Of a DNA stretch of 64,000 nucleotides, positions 32,108 to 53,577 are shown one piece after another. The position numbers and the translations under genes are program-made. A model generated the notes under the pieces. It saw only the letters and a program-made list of their open reading frames with translations. It did not search any database and had not been told where the DNA came from. This DNA comes from Phenylobacterium sp. (GTDB lineage: Bacteria; Pseudomonadota; Alphaproteobacteria; Caulobacterales; Caulobacteraceae). The stretch is taken from contig NZ_JAUXSP010000005.1 of the NCBI RefSeq assembly GCF_030679875.1, positions 1 through 64,000 of the forward strand, written 5' to 3'. How positions within the stretch are numbered: position 1 is the first letter of the stretch; the number at the start of each line of letters is the position of its first letter.

Positions 32108-35100
32108 TCAAGAAGGGACGCGCTTTTTCCCCGCCGCGCCAATGGACGAGGTCGAGTCCTGTTCGCCCAATACGAGGCGGAGACTGTGGGAAAGCCCATC
32201 GTCCGTCAGCGACAGTCTGACCGGCAGCTCAATCGGGACGCCGTCCAGTTCCGCCGCCACCACGCCCCGGCATACGCCAGCTGGGTTCTCAACGCGGATC
32301 TCGTAGCGCGCCGCGCCGTGACGCACGGACACTTCGAAGAAGGGCCAAGAGCCGGGGATGCAGGGGTCAATCTTGAGTATGGCGCCGGCCCGGCGGAGCC
32401 CAAGAATTGACTCAAGGCCCGCCCGGTGAAGCCACCCGGCAGAGCCTGTGTACCAGGTCCATCCTCCCCGGCCGACATGGCCGGGCGCGGCATAGACATC
32501 AGCGGCCGCCACATACGGCTCGACCTTGTAGAGGTTGGCTTCGGCTCGTGTACGCGCGTGGTTGATCGGATTTAGCTTGGCGAACAAGTCCGCCGCCCTG
32601 TCGCCGTCGCCAAGTTCTGCGTAGGCCATGACCGCCCAGGCGGCGGCATGGGTGTATTGGCCGCCATTCTCGCGGACGCCCGGTGGATAGGCCTTGATAT
32701 AGCCGGGGTCGAGGGGCGTGTGGTCGAAAGGTGGCGTGAACAGCAAAGCCATGGGGGGTTCGTCCAGGATCAACTCCCGGTCCACCGCTTCCATCGCCTG
32801 AACCGCGCGGTCCCGCATCGCCCCCCCTGATAGCACGGCCCAGGACTGGGCGATCTGGTCGATCCGGCACTCTTCTCTGCTGGCTGAACCCAGGGGCGTA
32901 CCGTCGTCGAACCAGCCGCGGCGGTACCAATCGCCATCCCAGGCTTCCCGCTCCGTGGCCTTCAACAAACTCGCGGCGTGGGCCCGCCAAATCGCCGCCC
33001 GGGCGTCATCCCCGCGGGACTCTGCGACGGGGGCGAAATCGTTGATCGTTCGATAGAGGAACCAGCCGAGCCAGACACTCTCGCCCAAGCCTCGCTCGCC
33101 AACCCTGTTCATGCCGTCGTTCCAATCGCCCCCGCCGATGAGGGGCAGCCCGTGGCCCCCGAGCTCCATGCTCTGGTCGAGGGCGCGCGCGCAGTGCTCG
33201 TAGAAGCTTGCGGTCTCTACCGAGGTCCCTGGCAGGAAGAAGTTCTCCGCTTCTCCTGGCTCCAGTCTGGCCCCTTCCACGAAGGTTACGGGTTCATCGA
33301 GAAGGCTGACGTCCTCCGTGGTCAGGAGGTAGTGCGCGGCGGTGAACGCCAGCCAGATGCGATCATCAGAGATCCGCGTACGTACGCCCTGGCCCGAGTG
33401 GGGCAACCACCAGTGTTGGACGTCACCCTCGATGAACTGCCGCGCCGCCGCCCGCAGAAGGTGCTCCCGGGTCAGTTCGGGCCGGAGGGCGGCCAGCGCC
33501 ATGCCATCTTGTAGCTGGTCGCGGAAACCATAGGCGCCGCTGGCCTGGTAAAAGGCCGAACGCGCCCAGATGCGGCAGGCAAGCGTCTGATAAAGCAACC
33601 AGCCATTGAGCATCAGGTCCAGGGGCCGATCAGGGGTTTTCACCTGCACCGTCGTCAAGAGGTCGTCCCAGACGGCGACGGCCTCCGAAAGGACCGCATC
33701 GACTTCTGCGGCTCGATACGTTCCGATGAGGTCGCGGGCGGCGTGCGCGCTGTCAGCGTCGCCCAACAGAACCACCACGTCGCGGCTCTCTCCCGGCGAT
33801 AGCTCAATTGTAGTCTGCAGAGCGGCGCAAGGATCCAGACCCGCTCCGACCCGCCCGCTGAGCGCCGTCCCCTTGGCCAGGGCCGCCGGCGCAGCTAGCG
33901 ATCCATTTCGACCAATGAATTCTCGACGATCGGCGGTCCAGCCGGTCTGACCCTCCATCCCGATGAAGGCCACCTTGTCCGCAAAGGCCGGCGCCCAGGC
34001 GTTGCGGGCAAAGATCGCCCCGCTGGCCTCGTCAAACTCCGTCGCGGTATGTGGCGCCGCCATGGTGCGCGCAGATCCCAGCGTCCACTCAACATATGCT
34101 GTCACAGTCAGCCGGCGCGCGCGGTTTGACCTGTTGTGCAGGCGGAGTCGGGTCACCTTGACCGGGTCCGTCGCGGGGACGAACTGCAAGAGTTCTGTGG
34201 CGACGCCATGTGTTTCGAGGTCGAACTGGCTATAGCCATGGCCGTGCCGAGCGACATAGGTCGATGTCTCATCCCGAATGGGCGTCGCTGTCGGCGACCA
34301 GACGTCTCCCGTGTCGTCGTCTCGCAGATAGAAGACCTCGCCCGCAGGGTTGGCGATGGGGTCATTGGACCAAGGGGTAAGCTGGCGCTCACGGCTGTTG
34401 GCCGACCACGTGTATCCTGCGCCCTCAGCCGAGACCTGAAAGCCGAACCTCGGGTTTGCTATGACGTTGATCCAGGGAGCTGGCGTGCTCACGCCTGGCC
34501 TGAGCACCGTGACATATTCCTGACCGTCTTTCGCAAAGCCGCCCAGTCCGTTGAACAGTTCCAGTTGCGGCATCACCAGGGCCGGCAGGGCGTCAGTGGT
34601 CGCCAGGCTCGGCCGCGCTGGTCGTTCCAGCAGGGACCGGTCCTCGGAGGCGCGCTCGATCTGATCCGCCAAGGAACCTGTGCGGGCGAAGAACACCACG
34701 CGCGAGACCGACATCAGCAATGCGCTCATCTCTGGCGCAAGCATGTCTGATCGCAAGATTACAACACGGCCAGCGGTGGCTTCGTCTCCAGTCTGGGCTC
34801 TCGACTGGCTCGCACGGACGAGCGACTCCAGTGCGATCTGCAGATCCTGCACATAGGACGATCCGTGTTCGTTGAGGATCACCAGGTCGCAGGCGAACTG
34901 TTTTGTGCGCCAATACTGGAAGGCTCGCAGGGACTGGCGGGCCACCGACAGGTTGTCCAGGCTGTCTATGCGCAGAAGCATGATCGGCAGATCGCCTGAG
35001 ATACCAAGACGCCACAACTCCGGCTGCCCTGCGCGCCCTTCTAGGATCTGCTCCGATGGCGGTCGCAGGGCGGGAGACGCGTAGATCAGGTGGCTGGCCA

Positions 35101-38100
35101 GCCGCTGGAACAGGTTTGCTTCCCCGCGATCCACGCCGAGGTGGTGCAGGTGAACGAGGGCCTGGGTCCAGGCGAGGGCGGCGGCGCGATTGAACGCTGC
35201 CGAATCTTGGTGCTTGTCGACGAGATCGATAATCGCCTTCCGCGACGAAGCGGCCATGGTCCAGAAGGTCACGCGCGCGGTGGCGCCTGGCGCTATTCTG
35301 ACACGACGGCGAAGGGAGAAGATGGGGTCCAGCACGAACCCGGTCGAGCCGGCGAGCGGCCGGCCAGCATCCAGCGCGACCGGCCGCTGGATGTCACGCC
35401 CCCGGCCGATGAAGCGTGCCCGATCGGTTTCGAATTCGGTTCGTCCAACCGCCTCCCCCTCCACAAGAGACAGGTGCGCGGCCCAGACTTCGGGCTCATC
35501 GCGCGAGCGGCGCCTACGGGTGGCCAGAACCGCGCTTGGCCCGGCGAGGTACTCGGTTTCGACAAACAGCTTCGAGAATGCCGGGTGCGCGATGTCCGCT
35601 GCCTGGGGGGCCAGCGCCAGCTCGGAATAGGAGGTGACTTCGACCTCGCGCCAGAGGGAGCTGAGGTTGCAGATCGAGACACGCCGCACCTCGGCGTCAT
35701 CCTCCCCCGATATCAGCACCTCCATCGTCGTCTTCAGACTGCCATCGAGACGCTCGAACTCGCAGCGATCCTCGCTGAACACAGCATGGTAGGCGTCCGC
35801 CGCCTGTCCGCAGGGCTGGGCGGCAGTCGACCAGACGTGGCCGGTTTTCACATCACGAAGAAAGACATAGGAGCCCCAGTCGTCGCATGTCGCATCCTCC
35901 CGCCAGCGGGTGAGGGCGACCCCGCGCCAGCGGCTGTAGCCGGATCCCGCCGCCGACATCATCACTGAATAGCGGCCGTTGGAGAGTAGGTGAGTGGCCG
36001 GCGCCGCGCCGTAGGGGCCAAGCACGCGCCGACCGGCCAGGACCTCGAGCTCAAGAACCGGGGAAGTGGGCGCGGCCTCAGCCGCCCATCGCGCGCGCTC
36101 GGGAACGTCTCGGGGCATGCGCTCCTGCAACAGGAGCTCGGAAGCCTGCACCATGGGCTCGGCATGGAAGTTCGCCTGCATTGGCCCACCAAGAAGCGCT
36201 TCTCCGAGGGCCACGATCGTCATGCCCTGGTGGTGGGCCATGAACGTCCCGACGATGGCAAAATCATCGTCCGTGGGAACGCGGCTTCGCGTGAAGTCGA
36301 CGGCCTCATAGAAGCCGTACCGACCGAGCGCGCCCAGGCTTGTCAGCCGTTCGAAGTTGCGAGCCGCCGCACTGGGATGGACCATGGCGGCCAGCGCAGT
36401 CGCGTATGGAGCCACGACGCTGTGCGTCGCCAGTCCACGTTTCAGCCCAAGAGTCGGGACGCCAAAATTGAGGTATTGATATGTGAATTCAAGGTCGCGA
36501 GCGTTGTAGGCGGACTCCGATATGCCCCATGGAATGCCGAGCTGTTCGCCGTAGGCGATCTGTTCTTGCACAATTAGTTGGTTCGTCTGCTCAAGTAGGC
36601 TTCCGCCGGCGGCTCGCATGATCAGCGACGGCATCAAGTACTCGAACATAGACCCCGACCAGGAGATCAACGCCGCGCCCTTGGCGGCAGGCGTCACGGC
36701 GCGACCGAGCCGGAACCAATGCTTGGCGGGAACGTCCCCCTTGGCGATCGCGAAGAAGCTCGCGAGGCGAGCCTCCGACCCAAGTAGATCGTAACAGCTG
36801 GGATCCAACTCTCCTTCTGCAGTCCTGTAGCCGATCGAGAGCAGCATGCGGTCGGGATCCAGCAGGAAGCCGAATTCCATTCCCACAGCGATGTCGCGGG
36901 CGGTCTGCTCCAGGTGAGCCAGTCGTAGATGCAGGGCTTCGGAGGCCTCGGTTGTGGCGGCGAGGTCGCGCTGGTGGTCTGCGATCGTCCTTGCCGCAGC
37001 TTCCGACCAAAACACGAGATCCACCGCAGCATCGTGTTCCACGGCAAGAGCGTGCGCTTGCTGGGTCAAGGCTTCTGTGCGGCCTCCCAGATCCGCCAAC
37101 ACCTCTAGGAGCGACGTCTCGGGCGCTATGGCGCGTGTCGAATTCACAAGGCCTTCGGAGGCCTCTTCGAGTTGGCGCCACACAACGGTCTGGCGGTCCC
37201 CTGGCGCGCGGAGGCTCTGCAGAGCCTCACGGGTCAATGCAAAGGCGTCGGCGATCCCGGCCAGTCGCACAGAGTCCGACGGGTTCAGACTTGTCCATTG
37301 CCGACAGATATTCGCCAGGGCGATGAGGTGGCCGGCAAGATTGCCGCTATCGACCGAAGACACGTATTTCGGCTCAAGCGGCCTCAGGTCGCCAGTGTCG
37401 TACCAGTTGTAGAAGTGGCCACGGTAACGAGGGAGTTCGGCCAGGGTTTCAAACGTGGCCTCCAGGCGTTGCACAGCCTCGTGCAAGCCGATCCACCCGA
37501 ACTGGCGCGCGGTTGCGACCGACAGCAGGTAGAGCCCGATGTTTGTGGGAGACGTCCGACGGGCAAGCGCCGCGGCCGGATTGTCCTGAAAATTGTCCGG
37601 CGGCAGCATGTGATCTTCCGCCGTGACGAAGGTCTCAAAGAACCGCCATGTCCTGCGGGCGATCTGTCGAAGCCCAGGCCCATCGCCGCCTACCGCTGAT
37701 AGGCCCTCGGCGAGTTTCTGGGGGCGGCTGATGGCGAAGGCCAGTCGCGGCGAGGCAGCCCATAGCAGCACCAGTGGCGCAGCCAGGAATACGGTTCCGT
37801 GGCCACTGGCCAGCGCCAGGATGAGGGCGACGCCAGCCAGCACGATAGCCGACGCCATTCGGTGACCATAGGCCCCCGGGCTTTGGCGAAGGTGCGCGGC
37901 TTGTGCGGCGGGTGACCACTCCAAGAGCCGTCTGCGCGTGACATAGAGACGCCACAAGGTCCGCCCGATCGCGTCGGCCATCAGGGCGGCCTGGTGAGCC
38001 AGAAGCGTCAGGATCAAGGCCGATTGAATCAAGGCTCGCCGAAGATCGCCCGCCAGGGCCCGGAGCCGCCGGCGCGGCGAGATGCCCACGATCCGGGGAG

Positions 38101-40693
38101 GGGCCAGGGTAAAGATGGGTGCAAGGGTCGGCAGGACGATCGTTGCGAGTATGAAGAGGGTCCAGATCGAGGCCGCCCCTGCTGGCAGGGTCCAGCCGGC
38201 GACCAATGCAGCGAATGCGCTCGGGGCGGACATCGACCGTCGGAGGTTATCGAGCATCTTCCAGCGGCCAATCGCCGGAATTGCGCGATGTCCCGCATTG
38301 GCGGACCCGGGGGGGCCCCGCCCGATGATCCAGGGCAACAGTTGCCAGTCGCCCCGCGCCCATCGGTGATGCCGCATGGCGGCGGCATCGTAGCGCGCCG
38401 GGAACTCCTCAATGACCTCTACGTCCGATGCGAGGCCCGCGCGGGCGAATATCCCCTCGAAGAGGTCATGGCTGAGTAGGGCGGCTTCAGGCACGCGGCC
38501 TTGCAAGGCCGCCTCGAAGGAGTCGATCTCATAGATGCCTTTGCCTGCGTAGGAGCCTTCCCCAAACAGGTCCTGATAGACATCCGAGACCGCTGAGGCA
38601 TAGGGATCGATGCCGCTCATGCTCGAAAATGCTCGCAGGAAAGGCGTGACCTTTCCAGCCGCAGGCAGGTCGGGACTCACCCGCGGCTGGAGAATGGCAT
38701 AGCCCTCGACGACGCGTCCGAGGTTCGGATCGAACCTAGGCTGGTTGAGGGGGTGGGCCATCTTTCCGATCAAGCGACGGACCGTGTCGCGGGGAAGACG
38801 CGTGTCAGCATCAAGGGTGATGACGTACTTCACGCCGAGCGGGACCACGGGGGGATGCCCATTCACCCCAAGGAATGTCGTGTCCCGAGCGCCACGCAGC
38901 AGCCGGTTGAGCTCATGCAGCTTGCCCCGCTTGCGCTCCCAGCCCATCCACCTCTGTTCGCTCTTGCTCCAGACCCGCCGACGATGCAGCAGGAGGAAAC
39001 GATCGCCACCAGGCGCGGGACCATACTTGGTGTTGAGCTTGGCGATCCCCTCTCGCGCCGCCAGAAGAAGCGCCTCGTCGCCCTCCAGATCCACGCTTGC
39101 TGAGTCCGCCCAGTCCGACAGCAGGGCGAAGTGGAGGTGTCCCTCGGAACTCGCAAGGTAGTGGATTTCCAGCCGCTCGATCAGTTCCTCAACCAGGTCG
39201 TGACTGGTCAGCAGAACGGGGACGGCGACCAGGGTGCGCAGGCGCGACGGCGCCCCGCTGCGGAGTTCCAGCGCCGGCAAAGGCCGGGCGCGGACGCCCT
39301 GAGTAAGGCCCCGGTTGACCAGCGCCACAGCAACGTCGATCGCAGGGACGGCGCCCAGCAATGTGAGCAAGGCTAGAGCCCACCCGCCGAGCCCGATGCT
39401 GGCCAGCAGGAAAAGGGGGATCGCCAGCAGCAACAGCGCAACCATTCCGCCGACGACGACGTAGCCTGAAATCCCGAAACTGCGGATAAAACGCGCCGGC
39501 CGCCGCCATAGCTCCGGCCGGTAGCCAAGCGCCTTCTCCATGTCCGGCCGTCCGCCACCCAGGAGATGGTAGCCTGGATCTGCGCGGCGGGCGTCCGCCT
39601 GGACGTCATGCGTAGCGGCGCGTGCGACTTGCAGCGCCCGAAGGGCGACATCAATCTCGCTGAGATCGGATCCCCTCGCCAGATCCTCAATGGCGTCGCG
39701 GTATAGATTGCGGGTCGGGAAATCCATGTCGGCAAAGGCGCTGGCGTTGCTCAGCGACGCATCGACGAGACTGCAGCGCTCGAACAATTCAGACCAGTCA
39801 ACATCAGAGATGAGCCGCATGCTGGTGACGATGTTTCTCACCGTCACGCTGGCGCTGACCTGGCGCTGCTGTTCGTCGCGGACCGCCGCGTCAGCGCTGC
39901 CGCCCTGTTGTGACATCCTCCCGTCCAGCCATGTCAGGGCGGCCGCGGCGGCGGCATCCTGATCACGCAGGCGCATGACCAGTTGAACGACAAAGGCGTC
40001 GCGCAACGCCCCCCGCTCGAATGCGGCAAGCACCTTCTGAGTGGGCTGGGGCGCCTCCCCCGCGACACCAAGCAGGCGGTCTGCGCAGCGGTCGGCTTCT
40101 TCCCGTGACTGGCGGCTGTCGACCACCCGTTCCGCGATCCGCCGCAAGTTCTCGACCAGGACGATGCGCAGCGTGATGGCGACGGCCCAGAGCTCTCCAA
40201 TAGTAAGTGGTTGAACCCGTTGATAGGAAGTCAGAAACCGGCAGAGCATTTCCTTGTCGAAATGACTGTCAGTATGGGCGACAAAGGCCCATGCGATACT
40301 GAATACACGTGGATATCCCGCAAAGGGCCCAGTGGCGAGTTTCGGAAGTTCCTTGTAGTATTCGACGGGGAGATCCAGCCGGATTTCTCGAATCTGCTTT
40401 TCGACAATGTGGAAGTTGTCGACCAGCCATTCCGCCGCCGGGGTAATGGCTGCGCCCTGCGCCACCGTTCCGGCGATGTCGCGATAGGCCGCGACCAGGG
40501 CGACTTCATTTTCCGCCAACCGCCTGGAAAGCGGCCGCCCCCGGGCGAACCCTGGGACGATGGGCTGAGCCCTTGCGAGGCTTGCGGCATGATCTTCCAG
40601 CCGCTCGACACTGAAGAGCTCGGCGCGGATGGGTTCGTCATCCATCCAGAGCGGCGCGGGCTGTCCAAACATTCGGCGGACAATAGACGTCAT
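32108..40693 (-). CDS. Cyclic beta-1,2-glucan synthase-like giant protein (GT84-GH94)
   Basis: The 2,861 residues match the NdvB/ChvB plan: a membrane hairpin at about 408-455, a cytoplasmic GT84 domain with VITLDADTRLPRDT near 625 and RHHRWARGDWQLLPW near 775, and further membrane segments at about 825-860 and 945-985. A glucoamylase-like region follows, then repeated carbohydrate-binding/GH94 modules to the end, with GGDWNDGMNRVGE near 2,520. In rhizobia it builds and trims cyclic beta-1,2-glucans for the periplasm. Here it lies in an accessory block with phosphoketolase-like and PEP-synthase genes. That setting suggests a storage or stress glycan, which is inference. Confidence 0.88.
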   Translation of the reverse strand: MTSIVRRMFGQPAPLWMDDEPIRAELFSVERLEDHAASLARAQPIVPGFARGRPLSRRLAENEVALVAAYRDIAGTVAQGAAITPAAEWLVDNFHIVEKQIREIRLDLPVEYYKELPKLATGPFAGYPRVFSIAWAFVAHTDSHFDKEMLCRFLTSYQRVQPLTIGELWAVAITLRIVLVENLRRIAERVVDSRQSREEADRCADRLLGVAGEAPQPTQKVLAAFERGALRDAFVVQLVMRLRDQDAAAAAALTWLDGRMSQQGGSADAAVRDEQQRQVSASVTVRNIVTSMRLISDVDWSELFERCSLVDASLSNASAFADMDFPTRNLYRDAIEDLARGSDLSEIDVALRALQVARAATHDVQADARRADPGYHLLGGGRPDMEKALGYRPELWRRPARFIRSFGISGYVVVGGMVALLLLAIPLFLLASIGLGGWALALLTLLGAVPAIDVAVALVNRGLTQGVRARPLPALELRSGAPSRLRTLVAVPVLLTSHDLVEELIERLEIHYLASSEGHLHFALLSDWADSASVDLEGDEALLLAAREGIAKLNTKYGPAPGGDRFLLLHRRRVWSKSEQRWMGWERKRGKLHELNRLLRGARDTTFLGVNGHPPVVPLGVKYVITLDADTRLPRDTVRRLIGKMAHPLNQPRFDPNLGRVVEGYAILQPRVSPDLPAAGKVTPFLRAFSSMSGIDPYASAVSDVYQDLFGEGSYAGKGIYEIDSFEAALQGRVPEAALLSHDLFEGIFARAGLASDVEVIEEFPARYDAAAMRHHRWARGDWQLLPWIIGRGPPGSANAGHRAIPAIGRWKMLDNLRRSMSAPSAFAALVAGWTLPAGAASIWTLFILATIVLPTLAPIFTLAPPRIVGISPRRRLRALAGDLRRALIQSALILTLLAHQAALMADAIGRTLWRLYVTRRRLLEWSPAAQAAHLRQSPGAYGHRMASAIVLAGVALILALASGHGTVFLAAPLVLLWAASPRLAFAISRPQKLAEGLSAVGGDGPGLRQIARRTWRFFETFVTAEDHMLPPDNFQDNPAAALARRTSPTNIGLYLLSVATARQFGWIGLHEAVQRLEATFETLAELPRYRGHFYNWYDTGDLRPLEPKYVSSVDSGNLAGHLIALANICRQWTSLNPSDSVRLAGIADAFALTREALQSLRAPGDRQTVVWRQLEEASEGLVNSTRAIAPETSLLEVLADLGGRTEALTQQAHALAVEHDAAVDLVFWSEAAARTIADHQRDLAATTEASEALHLRLAHLEQTARDIAVGMEFGFLLDPDRMLLSIGYRTAEGELDPSCYDLLGSEARLASFFAIAKGDVPAKHWFRLGRAVTPAAKGAALISWSGSMFEYLMPSLIMRAAGGSLLEQTNQLIVQEQIAYGEQLGIPWGISESAYNARDLEFTYQYLNFGVPTLGLKRGLATHSVVAPYATALAAMVHPSAAARNFERLTSLGALGRYGFYEAVDFTRSRVPTDDDFAIVGTFMAHHQGMTIVALGEALLGGPMQANFHAEPMVQASELLLQERMPRDVPERARWAAEAAPTSPVLELEVLAGRRVLGPYGAAPATHLLSNGRYSVMMSAAGSGYSRWRGVALTRWREDATCDDWGSYVFLRDVKTGHVWSTAAQPCGQAADAYHAVFSEDRCEFERLDGSLKTTMEVLISGEDDAEVRRVSICNLSSLWREVEVTSYSELALAPQAADIAHPAFSKLFVETEYLAGPSAVLATRRRRSRDEPEVWAAHLSLVEGEAVGRTEFETDRARFIGRGRDIQRPVALDAGRPLAGSTGFVLDPIFSLRRRVRIAPGATARVTFWTMAASSRKAIIDLVDKHQDSAAFNRAAALAWTQALVHLHHLGVDRGEANLFQRLASHLIYASPALRPPSEQILEGRAGQPELWRLGISGDLPIMLLRIDSLDNLSVARQSLRAFQYWRTKQFACDLVILNEHGSSYVQDLQIALESLVRASQSRAQTGDEATAGRVVILRSDMLAPEMSALLMSVSRVVFFARTGSLADQIERASEDRSLLERPARPSLATTDALPALVMPQLELFNGLGGFAKDGQEYVTVLRPGVSTPAPWINVIANPRFGFQVSAEGAGYTWSANSRERQLTPWSNDPIANPAGEVFYLRDDDTGDVWSPTATPIRDETSTYVARHGHGYSQFDLETHGVATELLQFVPATDPVKVTRLRLHNRSNRARRLTVTAYVEWTLGSARTMAAPHTATEFDEASGAIFARNAWAPAFADKVAFIGMEGQTGWTADRREFIGRNGSLAAPAALAKGTALSGRVGAGLDPCAALQTTIELSPGESRDVVVLLGDADSAHAARDLIGTYRAAEVDAVLSEAVAVWDDLLTTVQVKTPDRPLDLMLNGWLLYQTLACRIWARSAFYQASGAYGFRDQLQDGMALAALRPELTREHLLRAAARQFIEGDVQHWWLPHSGQGVRTRISDDRIWLAFTAAHYLLTTEDVSLLDEPVTFVEGARLEPGEAENFFLPGTSVETASFYEHCARALDQSMELGGHGLPLIGGGDWNDGMNRVGERGLGESVWLGWFLYRTINDFAPVAESRGDDARAAIWRAHAASLLKATEREAWDGDWYRRGWFDDGTPLGSASREECRIDQIAQSWAVLSGGAMRDRAVQAMEAVDRELILDEPPMALLFTPPFDHTPLDPGYIKAYPPGVRENGGQYTHAAAWAVMAYAELGDGDRAADLFAKLNPINHARTRAEANLYKVEPYVAAADVYAAPGHVGRGGWTWYTGSAGWLHRAGLESILGLRRAGAILKIDPCIPGSWPFFEVSVRHGAARYEIRVENPAGVCRGVVAAELDGVPIELPVRLSLTDDGLSHSLRLVLGEQDSTSSIGAAGKKRVPS

Positions 40694-48647: not shown

Positions 48648-49058
48648 CTAGCGCCCTCCAAATTGAATCGGATCCCCATTGAGGTCGAAGGCGGCGTATC
48701 GACCCACGCCACCGACGTGGATCGCGTCGACCATCCCCTGCAGCGCTACCTCGACCTGCGCCTGGCTCGGGGGCTTTCCGCCCTGGCCCGAAAGAGCGGC
48801 GGCGAAAACGATCTGCCATGGGGGGCCGGCCAGCTTGGCCTCGGCTGCCAATGCGGCGAAGTCAGCGAGGTCGGAAGCGGCCTTGTCGACGCACATCAAA
48901 GGCGACAGCGTGCCCCCTGCGCCCGCGAGGAAGTGTTCACGCTGAGCCTCGGTCGCATCGGCCGGCAACTCAGCGGCGGTAAATACGAACAGCAGCCGCT
49001 GCGGTTCCGGCTGGCTGGCGGCGGCCTTCAGCAGTTGGTCGAAGTGTGAGTCCGTCAT
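48648..49058 (-). CDS. Conserved 136-residue protein of unknown function
   Basis: From MTDSHFDQLLKAAASQPEPQ the protein continues RLLFVFTAAELPADATEAQR and LSPLMCVDKAASDLADFAAL. Homologues that I recall carry the label ribonucleotide reductase subunit alpha. The protein is far too short for that enzyme and has none of its motifs, so the label should not be trusted. AGGA is nine bases before the ATG. It lies downstream of the ubiTUV-DAO operon, 68 bases after it. Confidence 0.75.
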   Translation of the reverse strand: MTDSHFDQLLKAAASQPEPQRLLFVFTAAELPADATEAQREHFLAGAGGTLSPLMCVDKAASDLADFAALAAEAKLAGPPWQIVFAAALSGQGGKPPSQAQVEVALQGMVDAIHVGGVGRYAAFDLNGDPIQFGGR

Positions 49059-49126: not shown

Positions 49127-50224
49127 TTATATCCCGGCCAGCCGCATGGGGGAAAAGTCGCGGGGGGCTGGGCCCCCCATCCGCCCGGCGCCCGGGGGCT
49201 TGGCCGCCAGAAAGAGCGCGGCGGCCAGACGCCCGGCGGCGGGCGCAGTCTGGACGCCATATCCGCCAAGCCCGGCGAACCAGAAAAAATTCGGGGCGCG
49301 CAAGTCCCAACCGATCACCGGCAAGCGGTCTGGGGCGAAGCTACGCAATCCCGCCCACTGATGCTTGATGCGTCGGGGCTCGTGGCCGGTGGCCCGTTTC
49401 AGCCGGGCGACAGCCAGGGCGATATCCTGGGTTTCTGGCTGCGCATCGGTTGGCGCTGACGGCGTCTCGTCACAGGGCGAGACCAGCAGATCCTGGCCGA
49501 AAGGGCGAAAGTAGTAGGTGTCCGCCATGTCTTTGACGATCGGCCCCTCAAGCACCGGCTTGCGGGGCTCAGGCGGATCGACGAGCACGACCGTCCGCCG
49601 ATAGGCGGAAAGCCCAAGCGGCGTCAGGCCACAGCCCGCCGCAGTGTCATCGGCCCAGGCTCCAGTGGCGTTGATCAGGGCGGAGCAGCTGAGCTCCTCG
49701 CCCTCGATCTGCAGGCGCCAGGCGTCGCCGTCATGACTGATTTTGTGCGGCTGGACGCCGAGCCGCAGCGCGCCCCCCCGGCGGATCGCCGTGGTGATCA
49801 GCCGCTGGTGAACCCCTACAGCGTCGAGCTCGCCAGTCCCACGCTCCAACCAGGCCGATTTGAGGTTGTGCGTCCTGAGTATGGGGCAGAGTTCACGGAC
49901 TTTCGCCTGGCTGACCCATGTGGCCGTGGGGCTGGGCGCGGCGCGGCGTCGGGAGGAGACATGCAACACTGCGCGGGGGGTCAACAGAGGCGGGCGTGAT
50001 CCTGGCGCCGCCTCGAAATAGGATCGACTGGCTTCAGCCAGTGCGGCGATGGCCGGCCCTCCATAGGAGGGGATGAACATGCCGGTTGATCTTCCGCTGG
50101 CGTGATGACCGGGATGCTCTTCCTTCTCCAGGATCAGGAGGCTGACCCGCGACGCCAGCTCGGCGGCGAGCGATGCGCCGGCAAGGCCGCCGCCCAGTAT
50201 GATGGCCCCATAGGGCGGGCTCAT
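49127..50224 (-). CDS. FAD-dependent DAO-family oxidoreductase in the ubi operon
   Basis: The 365 residues begin with a dinucleotide-binding motif (IILGGGLAGASLAAELA, then LLILEKEEHPGHHASGRS), typical of DadA/glycine-oxidase flavoproteins. They end with a C-terminal FAD motif (FFWFAGLGGYGVQTAPAAGR). Such enzymes oxidise amines or amino acids, usually with oxygen or quinone. Its ATG overlaps the ubiV stop by four bases (ATGA), so it is translated with ubiV. A role with UbiTUV is an inference from that coupling. An ordinary amino-acid dehydrogenase remains possible. Confidence 0.85.
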   Translation of the reverse strand: MSPPYGAIILGGGLAGASLAAELASRVSLLILEKEEHPGHHASGRSTGMFIPSYGGPAIAALAEASRSYFEAAPGSRPPLLTPRAVLHVSSRRRAAPSPTATWVSQAKVRELCPILRTHNLKSAWLERGTGELDAVGVHQRLITTAIRRGGALRLGVQPHKISHDGDAWRLQIEGEELSCSALINATGAWADDTAAGCGLTPLGLSAYRRTVVLVDPPEPRKPVLEGPIVKDMADTYYFRPFGQDLLVSPCDETPSAPTDAQPETQDIALAVARLKRATGHEPRRIKHQWAGLRSFAPDRLPVIGWDLRAPNFFWFAGLGGYGVQTAPAAGRLAAALFLAAKPPGAGRMGGPAPRDFSPMRLAGI

Positions 50225-51123
50225 AGGTCGGCGGCCAGACGCATGCCGGGGGCGCCCTCCAGATAGCCATCGACCAGGGGGCCCGGCAGATCACAGGCGC
50301 GAAGCTGAGCCAGCAGCCGTCCTCGGTCTCCAGTCTCGAAATAGCGGCCATACGCCGCGATCACGGCCGACATGTCGCAGGCGTGCGGCGAAAGCCGCAC
50401 GGCCCGGACGCCGGCGGTCCGCAGGTCCTCAGGGGATGCGGCGACCGTGTGAACGCCGTGGGACAGGGTCTGAATACCGTTGATGCTGAGGAAGGCCGCG
50501 CCCTCCAGGGTCTGGACCGTCTGGCCGTCGGGATCGCGATCACAGACAAATCGGCAGGTATCCTTGGACAGTCCGGCCTGCCGCGCATGATGGCAGCGCG
50601 CCGAGAGCGCCAGGGGGAGCCGGCCAAAACCGAAGATCTCGATCTCAAGATCAGGACAGGCCCGATGGATTTCCCCAATCGCGGCCAGGGACAGCTCGAT
50701 ATTGCCGCAGAGGCGCTCACAGCCGCGGTCGATAAGGATCTGGGCGGCCGAGCCATTGTAGATATTGAGCAGCGGACCTGCGACGAAGGTGCGATCTGGG
50801 GGAAGCAGGCTCATGGCGGCGAGGTCGTTCAGCTCCAGCAGCTGCAGTTCATCCTGCTGCGCGATGCCCTGGAGCAGGCGTCGGTCCCTCGGCGTGGAGA
50901 TCAGGCCAAGGGTCGACCAGACCACCTCCTTGCCAGCGTCGCGCAGCAACGCCGCCGCCGCCAGCAGAGTGGCGGCGGCCAGAGGCTCGCGCTTCCCGCA
51001 CACGACCTCGCCGAGATAGATGCGGCGCACCAGAGGCTCGCACGCCATGCGCTCATAGAAGGCTGCGATGTCCTCGGCGGGCCAGTTGAACAGCAGGGGG
51101 CCAAGGGTGATCTCCAAGGTCAT
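50221..51123 (-). CDS. ubiV: UbiV, oxygen-independent ubiquinone hydroxylase subunit
   Basis: The 300-residue U32-peptidase-like protein has the four cysteines that bind a 4Fe-4S cluster at 42, 177, 190 and 194. Their spacing equals E. coli UbiV (39, 180, 193, 197) in the last three. With UbiU it hydroxylates ubiquinone intermediates without oxygen, using prephenate as oxygen donor, so the cell can respire nitrate. One base separates it from ubiU, and its stop overlaps the next flavoprotein start. Confidence 0.93.
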   Translation of the reverse strand: MTLEITLGPLLFNWPAEDIAAFYERMACEPLVRRIYLGEVVCGKREPLAAATLLAAAALLRDAGKEVVWSTLGLISTPRDRRLLQGIAQQDELQLLELNDLAAMSLLPPDRTFVAGPLLNIYNGSAAQILIDRGCERLCGNIELSLAAIGEIHRACPDLEIEIFGFGRLPLALSARCHHARQAGLSKDTCRFVCDRDPDGQTVQTLEGAAFLSINGIQTLSHGVHTVAASPEDLRTAGVRAVRLSPHACDMSAVIAAYGRYFETGDRGRLLAQLRACDLPGPLVDGYLEGAPGMRLAADL

Positions 51124-51124
51124 G

Positions 51125-52117
51125 TCACCGCCACCGCTTGTTATAGGCGCCTTCGGTCTCTCGCCCCCCCTCGGCCAGATCGGTCAGCATGTGCTCAAAG
51201 GGCGCGGTGCTCTCGCCGCGATCGAGGGCGTCGATCGCCTTGCGGAAGGCCCGCGTCACGCGCGCCACATAGGCCTTCCCGCGTTGGCGTCCCTCGATCT
51301 TGACGGCTTTCACCCCGGCCTGCCGCAGGCTGGCCAGCAGGCCCATGGCGTTAAGGCTGGTCGGCTCTTCAAACAGATAGGTGGCGTCTCCGTCGGTCGC
51401 GAAACGCCCCTTGCACAGGGTGGGATAGCCGGCTGTGGCGCCAGGCGGGGTCTTGTCGAGGGCCAGACCGGACAGGCGTGACACCATGCCTTCGGCGGTG
51501 CGCTCGAAACTCACCGCCTCCGGGGGTGAGCATACGCCCGAGAGGTTAGGGGACTGGCCGCTGACATAGGATGAAAGCGCGCAGCGACCTTCGGTCATGA
51601 CGCAAAGCCCACCAAAGACGAAGGCCTCGATCTCGGCCGGCGACTCCTTGATCAGGTCGGCGATCTCCGATGCGGACATGACCCGGGGGACGACAACCCG
51701 CCGGACACCGAACGTCTCCACATAGAACCGGATCGCCTCAGGGGTGTTCGCGGCAGCCTGCACCGACAGGTGCAGCCGCACGGTCGAGCTCAGTTCCCGG
51801 ACATGGGCGAGGACGGCGAGGTCGGCGGCGATGATCGCATCGGCGCCGGCCGCGACTGCGGTCATCACAGAGGTCCGCCACCGCTCCTCGCCGCCGGCGC
51901 GGGCGAAGGTGTTGATGGCCACCAGCACCTTGGCGCCCTTCTGATGAGCGAAGTTGACGGCGCGCCTCAATTCAGCGGCGTCGAAGTTGAGGCCCGGAAA
52001 GTTCCGCGCATTCGTTTCGTCGCGCAGACCGCAATAGACACTGTCGGCGCCCGCCTCGATGGCCGCCTCCAGCATGGCCGGCGAGCCGGCGGGACAGACG
52101 AGTTCAATGGACCCCAT
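51125..52117 (-). CDS. ubiU: UbiU, oxygen-independent ubiquinone hydroxylase subunit
   Basis: From MGSIELVCPAGSPAMLEAAI the 330 residues match UbiU. Its cluster cysteines are at 172, 179, 196 and 235, the same spacing as E. coli (169, 176, 193, 232), in GGLCVMTEGRCALSSYVSG and the following loops. It forms the UbiU-UbiV heterodimer. GAGG lies about eight bases before the ATG at 52117; the start codon is inside ubiT, which overlaps it by 14 bases. Confidence 0.94.
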   Translation of the reverse strand: MGSIELVCPAGSPAMLEAAIEAGADSVYCGLRDETNARNFPGLNFDAAELRRAVNFAHQKGAKVLVAINTFARAGGEERWRTSVMTAVAAGADAIIAADLAVLAHVRELSSTVRLHLSVQAAANTPEAIRFYVETFGVRRVVVPRVMSASEIADLIKESPAEIEAFVFGGLCVMTEGRCALSSYVSGQSPNLSGVCSPPEAVSFERTAEGMVSRLSGLALDKTPPGATAGYPTLCKGRFATDGDATYLFEEPTSLNAMGLLASLRQAGVKAVKIEGRQRGKAYVARVTRAFRKAIDALDRGESTAPFEHMLTDLAEGGRETEGAYNKRWR

Positions 52118-52643
52118 GGGGCTTGCCTCCCGTGCGCCTGGCCGCGCGGCGCCAATCAACAATTCGCTGCAAAACAGGATCAAGCCCGGGGGCCAGGGCG
52201 GCAGGAACCAGCAGGTCGGCGAGGCGAAGGTCGGCCGCTTCCAGGGCGTTATGGAGGGCCAGCACCGCCCCCGTATCGCCACGTACGGTGAGCCCGCCGG
52301 CGAAGAAGGTCGCATCTGCATCGGCCGAGCCGTCGAAGAGCGCCAGCAGATCCATGAGTTCACCCGAGATCTCGGCCACGTAGCCCAGGGGCTGAAGGGG
52401 GCGGCGGACCACCTTCACGGCGCCGCCATGCGCATTCAGGGTCAATTCAAAGGCGACGGGGAGGTCTTCCGGATCGATCAGATAGGGGTGGCCCTGAAAG
52501 CGGCCCAAGCGTCCGAAGGCGTTGGCGGAGCGCTGCCAGGCCCGCCTGACGGCGAGATTGAGCAGCATCTCCACGGGAGGTCTTAGGGCGAGGGTCAGGT
52601 CGGTCAGAACGCGCGCAAACAAGCGCTCCGCTGAGAACGGCAT
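52104..52643 (-). CDS. ubiT: UbiT, SCP2-domain lipid-binding accessory factor
   Basis: The 179 residues contain a single SCP2-like lipid-binding domain (LPVAFELTLNAHGGAVKVVR and LDLLALFDGSADADATFFAG-like core). UbiT is needed with UbiU and UbiV for anaerobic ubiquinone and is thought to carry the hydrophobic precursors. It is the first gene of a ubiT-ubiU-ubiV-DAO operon. A weaker FNR-like box is centred about 72 bases upstream. The E. coli arrangement has ubiT next to ubiUV, which agrees. Confidence 0.9.
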   Translation of the reverse strand: MPFSAERLFARVLTDLTLALRPPVEMLLNLAVRRAWQRSANAFGRLGRFQGHPYLIDPEDLPVAFELTLNAHGGAVKVVRRPLQPLGYVAEISGELMDLLALFDGSADADATFFAGGLTVRGDTGAVLALHNALEAADLRLADLLVPAALAPGLDPVLQRIVDWRRAARRTGGKPHGVH

Positions 52644-52754: not shown

Positions 52755-53528
52755 TCAAACCGTCATCCGCTCAGGTTGGTTTGGCCAGGCCTCAAGCAGG
52801 GCCTTGCCCCGACCACGCATGTCGTCAGGGGCGTGATTGTCGATCAGGGCGTCAGGCTTGGCCAGGCGTGTCAGGACCACGAGCCGGCCGATGGTCACGA
52901 GCGGGCCATTCACGACCACCCCATAGTCAGCGAGGCTGGCGAAGGCGCGGGACAGATTCTCAGGGGTCATGCCCAGCAATGAAGCCAGCACGCGCTTCTC
53001 ATGGGGGAGCGTGATTGTCTCCGCATTCCCCTGGCGCACGCGCTGGGTGATCAGATAGTTGGCCAGGCGCTCGATCCCGCCGCGGAGCTTCTGGCTCTTC
53101 ATGGAGCGAACCAGACCGCGGTAGCAGCCCGCCAGTTCCTGGGACACGGCGAAACTGAAGGCGGCGTCCTCATGCATCACCCGGCGAAGGGTCTCACCTG
53201 AGATCATCAGGATGTCGGAGCGATCCCGAGTGGTGGCGCTCATCAGGGCGCTGGCGTCCAGGACAACGGCGGCCAGAATGAAGGTCGACAGGGGCCCAAG
53301 GAGGGCGAGGATGGTCTCCTTGTCGTTCCAGGTGCCTGAGAGTTCGACCGTTCCATCGAGCACGATGTAGAGAAAATCGACGCTGTCACCTTCGGTGAGC
53401 AGGGTTGTCCCGGCCGGAAAGCGTTGAAGAAAGGCGCCCTGAATCAGGCGACGGAAAGTGTCTTCGCTGGCGGCCTTTAGGAATGGCAACTCCCTGACGC
53501 GTGCGAGATCGGCCTCTTTGATCGGCAT
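52755..53528 (-). CDS. Crp/Fnr-family regulator without Fe-S cysteines
   Basis: The 257 residues comprise a cyclic-nucleotide-like sensor domain (about 15-125) and a winged helix (about 170-225) with recognition helix TPENLSRAF. Glu190, Ser193 and Arg194 correspond to FNR's E-x-x-S-R that reads TTGAT. Only one cysteine is present (Cys135), so it cannot bind FNR's 4Fe-4S cluster; a FixK/DNR-like role sensing through another signal is likelier. I use ATG 53528 with GGAGG eight bases upstream. It probably controls the boxes in this window, including one in front of itself. Confidence 0.9.
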   Translation of the reverse strand: MPIKEADLARVRELPFLKAASEDTFRRLIQGAFLQRFPAGTTLLTEGDSVDFLYIVLDGTVELSGTWNDKETILALLGPLSTFILAAVVLDASALMSATTRDRSDILMISGETLRRVMHEDAAFSFAVSQELAGCYRGLVRSMKSQKLRGGIERLANYLITQRVRQGNAETITLPHEKRVLASLLGMTPENLSRAFASLADYGVVVNGPLVTIGRLVVLTRLAKPDALIDNHAPDDMRGRGKALLEAWPNQPERMTV

Positions 53529-53577
53529 CCATGGTCCTCCGTCAGTGTGGAGCATGACGCCTTTGCACGTTCCAGCC

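Follow-up and report, generated by a model that had tools for sequence, protein, structure and literature searches.

A DAO-family flavoprotein gene coupled to ubiTUV in Phenylobacterium sp. and the changing occupants of its position next to ubiV across Caulobacteraceae

The window analysed here is a stretch of 64,000 nucleotides from Phenylobacterium sp. (Caulobacteraceae; contig NZ_JAUXSP010000005.1, positions 1 to 64,000). It carries ubiT, ubiU and ubiV, followed by a fourth gene for a predicted flavin adenine dinucleotide (FAD) flavoprotein of the DAO family, called DAO below (Table 1). The block runs from 52643 to 49127 on the minus strand, and all four genes overlap or touch. The coding regions of ubiT and ubiU share 14 bases, a single base separates ubiU from ubiV, and ubiV overlaps the DAO gene by 4 bases (ATGA). 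An earlier sequence-only reading of this DNA had described the same junctions, and its coordinates are confirmed. UbiT, UbiU and UbiV all exceed their curated NCBIfam cut-offs. The cysteines of UbiU include residues 172, 179, 196 and 235 (spacing X6, X16, X38), those of UbiV residues 42, 177, 190 and 194 (spacing X12, X3), so that four Fe-S cysteines are found in both proteins. We take these spacings to agree with the Fe-S cysteine positions of Escherichia coli. Judged by family assignment, the three genes are those of the O2-independent ubiquinone pathway. The systems of E. coli and Pseudomonas aeruginosa share with the window all three proteins, the position of ubiV after ubiU and a nitrate-respiration setting; the window operon differs in adding a coupled fourth cistron.

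Conservation of the gene pair was followed in two samples. The family sample comprised 199 genomes, of which 23 gave a UbiV match; G127 and G198, with short and weak matches (1e-4 and 4e-5), were left out, leaving 21. The genus sample comprised 101 genomes, 16 of them with UbiV at 1e-30. Together the samples hold 30 distinct ubiV genomes; L001, L002, L003 and L004 are the same as G600, G140, G589 and G616, and each was counted once. A DAO of the window's type (clade A) lies directly behind ubiV in 14 of the 30 (G000, G132, G140, G163, G166, G173, G190, G584, G585, G589, G598, G600, G615 and G616). Thirteen of these are among the 16 ubiV genomes of the genus; the fourteenth, G173, belongs to another genus. 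Of the remaining three in the genus, G588 carries its clade-A DAO on another contig, G590 has a DAO of a second kind behind ubiV, and G006 has a GlcD-type flavoprotein there. No clade-A DAO was found in the 85 genus genomes without ubiV. Presence of clade A and of UbiV coincide in the genus (14/16 versus 0/85; Fisher test, 2e-15) and in the family (7/21 versus 0/178; 5e-8), in trials that are not independent, the genomes being related. DAO genes as such are wider spread: the family sample gave 39 matches at 1e-30 in 35 of 199 genomes, 7 linked to ubiV and 32 unlinked. A 4-base overlap with ubiV is available in 12 of the 14 linked genomes, while G190 has a 1-base overlap and G163 a 3-base gap; other in-frame starts lie near several of these junctions, so the true DAO start is not proven. 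The junction is tight in all 14 genomes examined, in line with the coupling first proposed for the window. Because it recurs in 14 genomes, the window included, it exceeds chance.

Outside the family, 94 ubiV loci were compared. They consist of 54 of 58 ubiV loci, four from Caulobacteraceae being excluded, and of the 40 non-family members of 43 ubiV genomes obtained by searching 385 genomes of the class. The 54 were taken as non-family, some being placed only to class or phylum, and their flanks reach at most 6 kb, less at contig ends. The two sets have no locus in common at 95% identity over 1 kb, and 4 of the 94 offer only 377-717 bases behind ubiV. Within these limits, no DAO, GlcD or mutase gene was found directly behind ubiV in any of the 94. 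Weak DAO-profile matches were found in the scanned stretches of two loci: in L030 (4e-8) the match lies before ubiU on the other strand, and in L255 (6e-4) it is over 4 kb distant. In the 385 class genomes a DauA-like match at 1e-70 is present in 119; 30 of their loci were examined, and only that of the window is linked to ubiV. Such a match also occurs in 20 of the 43 genomes with ubiV. It adjoins ubiV in the window alone; in G322 the two share a contig at a distance of about 9 kb. The expectation of a DAO gene conserved beside ubiV thus holds inside Caulobacteraceae and fails in the outside loci compared. Absent from behind ubiV in these 94, the gene cannot belong to UbiUV chemistry in general, and a role as general ubiTUV partner was rejected.

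The linked DAOs lie on one side of a branch that separates them from unlinked DAOs (support 100/100 with 33 rows, 100/99 with 63 rows). In a 62-row tree the branch (100/99) holds 17 linked rows, some of them identical copies of one genome, together with that of G588. Fourteen further stretches, taken for the DAO matches not yet represented by a locus, all fall outside clade A in a quick 66-row tree (Shimodaira-Hasegawa-like approximate likelihood ratio test, 99); one of them is a fragment with a stop. L087 and L162 form long branches, and the order inside and just outside the linked clade is unsure. Mapped on the UbiU+UbiV tree, the presence of DAO requires 5 changes, at least 3 of them forced, a pattern that fits ancient presence with repeated loss. 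The ratio of nonsynonymous to synonymous substitutions (dN/dS, NG86) is 0.13-0.32 for DAO and 0.05-0.20 for UbiV in seven pairs that share members, and 0.07-0.10 for UbiU in four pairs. DAO is under purifying selection.

The protein matches the DAO domain PF01266 with 172 bits over residues 8-337 (gathering score 27.9). Twelve NCBIfam equivalog models of DAO proteins (ThiO, MnmC, DadA-type and others) matched, none above its cut-off; the best, ThiO, reached 44.5 of 250.8 bits. A search with DAO against the window's own genome gave one match at E 0.001. The nearest solved chain is D-arginine dehydrogenase DauA (1e-50 over residues 8-362, about 30% identity). An AlphaFold model of DAO has a predicted local distance difference test value of 88 and a predicted template modelling (TM) score of 0.87; its best solved matches in Foldseek are again DauA, at TM 0.89-0.90. 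According to the part of the source covered, DauA is a strict dehydrogenase that oxidises every D-amino acid other than Asp and Glu, does not use O2 and has no known physiological electron acceptor (PMC11193025). It binds the carboxylate via R222 and R305 and the guanidinium via E87 and E246 (PMC11193025, same part). Loop L1 acts as a lid gated by Y53, and T50 touches the guanidinium, as stated in the portion covered of a further paper (PMC9996824). P. aeruginosa DauA (3nyc, 3nye, 6p9d) has in common with DAO the sequence match, the fold and the counterparts of R222, R305, Y53 and Y249, and the linked DAOs differ from it at three positions. The carboxylate and gate residues (R222, R305, Y53, Y249 in DauA numbering) are conserved in every one of the ten linked rows examined. 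In the same ten rows guanidinium contacts are lost, E87 being replaced by V or T and T50 by I or L, and H48 is replaced by M. The counterpart of E246 is E or D, and loop L1 reads GRS-x-x-M-x-(I/L)-PSYGG. With the carboxylate and gate residues retained and the contacts to the basic group gone, the substrates oxidised by the linked clade should be carboxylates whose side chain is not basic.

In G588 the clade-A gene is separate from ubiV and has an FtrB gene and nitrate-reductase genes nearby, the latter identified by eye. Its loop L1, inspected by eye, reads PSHG, so that His stands in place of the gate tyrosine. The gene looks as if it had moved out of the operon and were drifting.

Other genes occupy the slot behind ubiV in further relatives. 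An extra chorismate mutase of the AroQ type (PF01817), a protein unrelated to DAO, is found there in 5 of the 30 genomes (G002, G007, G024, G037 and G147). Its start overlaps ubiV by the same 4 bases in all five, with a TTG start in G007. The slot mutases of G037 and G147 score 65.3 and 63.6 bits (6e-18 and 2e-17) against a PF01817 gathering score of 27, and no NCBIfam mutase model reached its cut-off on these two proteins. Those of G002, G007 and G024 were assigned by similarity and by their place in the PF01817 genome search, in which all five exceed the cut-off. Each of the five genomes has three CM_2 genes, compared with 0 to 2 in the other 23 of 28 searched. A model built from the five slot mutases gave them 143-173 bits over the 199 family genomes, the next best protein 95. 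Because the residue after the invariant R50 differs (E in two; I, A and I in three), we can only infer their mutase activity. Chorismate mutases make prephenate, and the slot enzymes, as members of this family, should do the same. Prephenate is said to be the oxygen donor of the pathway, as Ferizhendi et al. reportedly described in PNAS in 2024.

In G006 a GlcD-type FAD_binding_4 protein overlaps ubiV by 4 bases; every other ubiV genome in the genus has a DAO match at 1e-70, and G006 has none. Dehydrogenases of this kind are flavoenzymes of small acids in Pfam families other than that of DAO (PF01565, PF02913). GlcD-like proteins, 66-71% identical to that of G006, are encoded upstream of ubiT in G132, G584, G598, G615, G166 and G173; in the window genome the nearest copy is on another contig. 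The second, non-orthologous DAO of G590 starts 25 bases behind ubiV. A DAO of this second kind is located upstream of ubiT in G061, coupled to a FAD_binding_4 gene, and a near relative in G044 (L118) is not beside ubiV on its contig. Nine of the 30 genomes have no DAO, GlcD or mutase gene behind ubiV (G014, G046, G061, G080, G090, G114, G129, G141 and G588). The slot behind ubiV in Caulobacteraceae is interchangeable between enzymes.

Table 1. Coordinates of the ubiTUV block, of genes around it and of slot genes in relatives (window positions unless a locus is named).
Feature	Position	Strand	Product or size	Evidence or remark
ubiT	52104..52643	-	SCP2-domain accessory factor	NCBIfam NF047962.3, 53 bits vs cut-off 46.9
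ubiU	51125..52117	-	U32 Fe-S protein	NCBIfam NF047963.1, 487 bits vs cut-off 440
ubiV	50221..51123	-	U32 Fe-S protein	NCBIfam NF047965.1, 317 bits vs cut-off 275
DAO gene, fourth cistron	49127..50224	-	DAO-family FAD flavoprotein (predicted), 365 amino acids	PF01266
Small open reading frame behind DAO	48648..49055	-	135 amino acids	Operon membership uncertain
FtrB-type gene	52755..53555	-	Crp/Fnr-family regulator	Upstream of ubiT; NCBIfam NF006901 and NF050815 above cut-off
Very long open reading frame	32108-40693	-	2861 amino acids
Slot chorismate mutase genes	L093:5939-6262; L101:5831-6154 (L101 = G147); L092:5887-6207; L090:6067-5735; L089:5930-5631		PF01817 family
GlcD-type gene, G006	L208:5700-7082		FAD_binding_4 protein
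Second kind of DAO, G590	L205:2928-4100
Clade-A DAO, G588	L203:9375-10484

The block is set in a nitrate-respiration island with narGHJI and genes for a PpiC-type isomerase, a hemerythrin-domain protein, a carbonic anhydrase, a MobA-like protein and FtrB. Past the window end follow the remainder of narG and genes for two NarK-like transporters, one MoaA-like protein and one NnrS-like protein, these four being named by eye from their translations. The FtrB-type gene is a neighbour of the operon and a possible regulator of it. The small open reading frame behind DAO has no Pfam or NCBIfam family match. Within the loci scanned, it recurs in none but the nearest relatives of the window, at 77-88% identity. 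Elsewhere in the window a very long open reading frame stands out. The matches to UbiV of G114 (L077) and UbiU of G147 (L101) are split into two pieces in different frames, possibly by frameshifts or sequencing errors.

In the O2-independent ubiquinone operon of Caulobacteraceae, the DAO gene is a real fourth cistron that is restricted to the lineage. Our preferred reading, held with a confidence somewhat short of even, is that it codes for a DauA-like FAD dehydrogenase that would serve the anaerobic ubiquinone system. The enzyme would bind the carboxylate of a small acid through its conserved Arg/Tyr set and oxidise the alpha carbon, either an amine or an alcohol. Its substrate is probably a non-basic, plausibly aromatic acid rather than D-arginine. 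This could be an amino or hydroxy acid tied to the use of prephenate or to its products, and the electrons would pass to the quinone pool. Our own bookkeeping, which uses formulae only, reads RH + prephenate (C10H10O6) → ROH + phenylpyruvate (C9H8O3) + CO2 + 2[H]. Two electrons would be left over with phenylpyruvate as the final form of the donor; otherwise a reduced donor would remain and need a two-electron oxidation. Because either fate leaves a two-electron oxidation, an oxidising flavoenzyme would fit this hypothesis better than a supply of reductant. The sequence-only reading had suggested that the FAD enzyme could support the supply of UbiUV with reducing power. That proposal finds no backing: the nearest solved relative oxidises amino acids, and prephenate hydroxylation would, by the same bookkeeping, be redox-neutral or release two electrons. 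The other suggestion of that reading, the processing of a by-product, may apply, the slot of five relatives being occupied by a mutase of the prephenate-forming family. A substitution for a missing decarboxylase UbiD/UbiX was also considered and rejected: all 21 family genomes with ubiV contain PF01977, and 20 of them TIGR00421. Both profiles occur with and without DAO alike, and the single TIGR00421 miss is G061, a genome that is 91% complete.

Several observations weigh against a fourth cistron that serves ubiquinone synthesis. Most ubiTUV loci examined are without DAO, and the protein is therefore dispensable for UbiUV chemistry. Even in Caulobacteraceae, 14 of the 30 ubiV genomes have neither DAO nor GlcD in the slot, 5 of these having the mutase. 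Most of the conserved residues recur in nearly all unlinked DAOs, and position 87 is variable across the wider family; because unlinked DAOs share both patterns, neither is special to the linked clade. DAO changes more quickly than UbiU; compared with UbiV, it has the higher dN/dS in 5 of 7 pairs and an about equal or lower one in two. Given the island setting, plain co-regulation could account for the coupling of ubiV and DAO.

Such co-regulation leads to the alternative that DAO is a conventional dehydrogenase of D-amino acids (or hydroxy acids), supplying electrons to the ubiquinone pool for nitrate respiration and made with UbiTUV only as both are needed without O2. We give this a substantial, though minority, share of the probability. 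It agrees with the nitrate-respiration island, with the GlcD-like protein in the G006 slot and upstream of ubiT in six relatives, and with the broad, O2-independent activity on D-amino acids other than Asp and Glu described for DauA in the part covered of PMC11193025. However, the linked clade is not seen in ubiV-less genomes, where other DauA-like enzymes are common, and the chorismate mutase in the same slot is left unexplained. The gene might also be a passenger at an operon end that is merely a permissive place, where unrelated genes get parked and expressed. Three unrelated protein families in the slot, the 9 of 30 genomes with none of them and the several changes of DAO presence on the UbiUV tree would be expected in that case. 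Fourteen tight junctions, one supported group, no member in ubiV-less genomes and a mutase alternative that is pathway-relevant make a passenger unlikely. Least probable of all is a redox partner that exchanges electrons with the Fe-S clusters of UbiU and UbiV. The overlaps predict co-translation, and a prephenate-dependent hydroxylation with aromatisation would by our bookkeeping leave two electrons to take up. This contrasts with the absence of the gene from behind ubiV in the 94 outside loci and with a nearest solved relative that acts on free amino acids.

The reading of DAO as a pathway dehydrogenase can be extended to the other occupants of its position. The slot behind ubiV would then be an oxygen-donor slot, in which the mutase makes prephenate locally for UbiUV, and DAO or GlcD oxidises the spent donor, or an amino or hydroxy derivative of it, by two electrons to give back phenylpyruvate, with a quinone as acceptor. 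We consider this extension doubtful. As to the fate of prephenate after oxygen donation, the exact transformation and direct evidence for catalysis by the U32 oxidases remain to be shown, as noted in the part covered of PMC11574389.

The sequence-only reading had placed the flavoprotein outside the described three-protein system, and the literature covered agrees. Neither a coupled flavoprotein nor a chorismate mutase is mentioned in the ubiTUV texts covered (PMC6747719, PMC10470549, PMC11707229 and PMC12423496; main texts in part, without supplements, and mostly outside subscription papers). Section 20 of PMC11707229 surveys ubiTUV architectures in 1562 genomes and, supplements excluded, names no fourth gene. 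None of the papers listed by a literature search contains both chorismate mutase and UbiU. Measured against this literature, the pathway itself is established, and the fourth cistron and the interchangeable slot that it occupies appear to be new. The known three-gene ubiTUV system may thus be incomplete in this family. The slot genes give independent genomic support for prephenate as oxygen donor. The ubiV-coupled flavoenzyme, together with the ubiV-coupled extra chorismate mutase of the relatives, offers two direct genetic handles on the fate of prephenate. If the slot does serve the oxygen donor, ubiTUV and the fourth gene would form a self-contained oxygen-transfer cycle.

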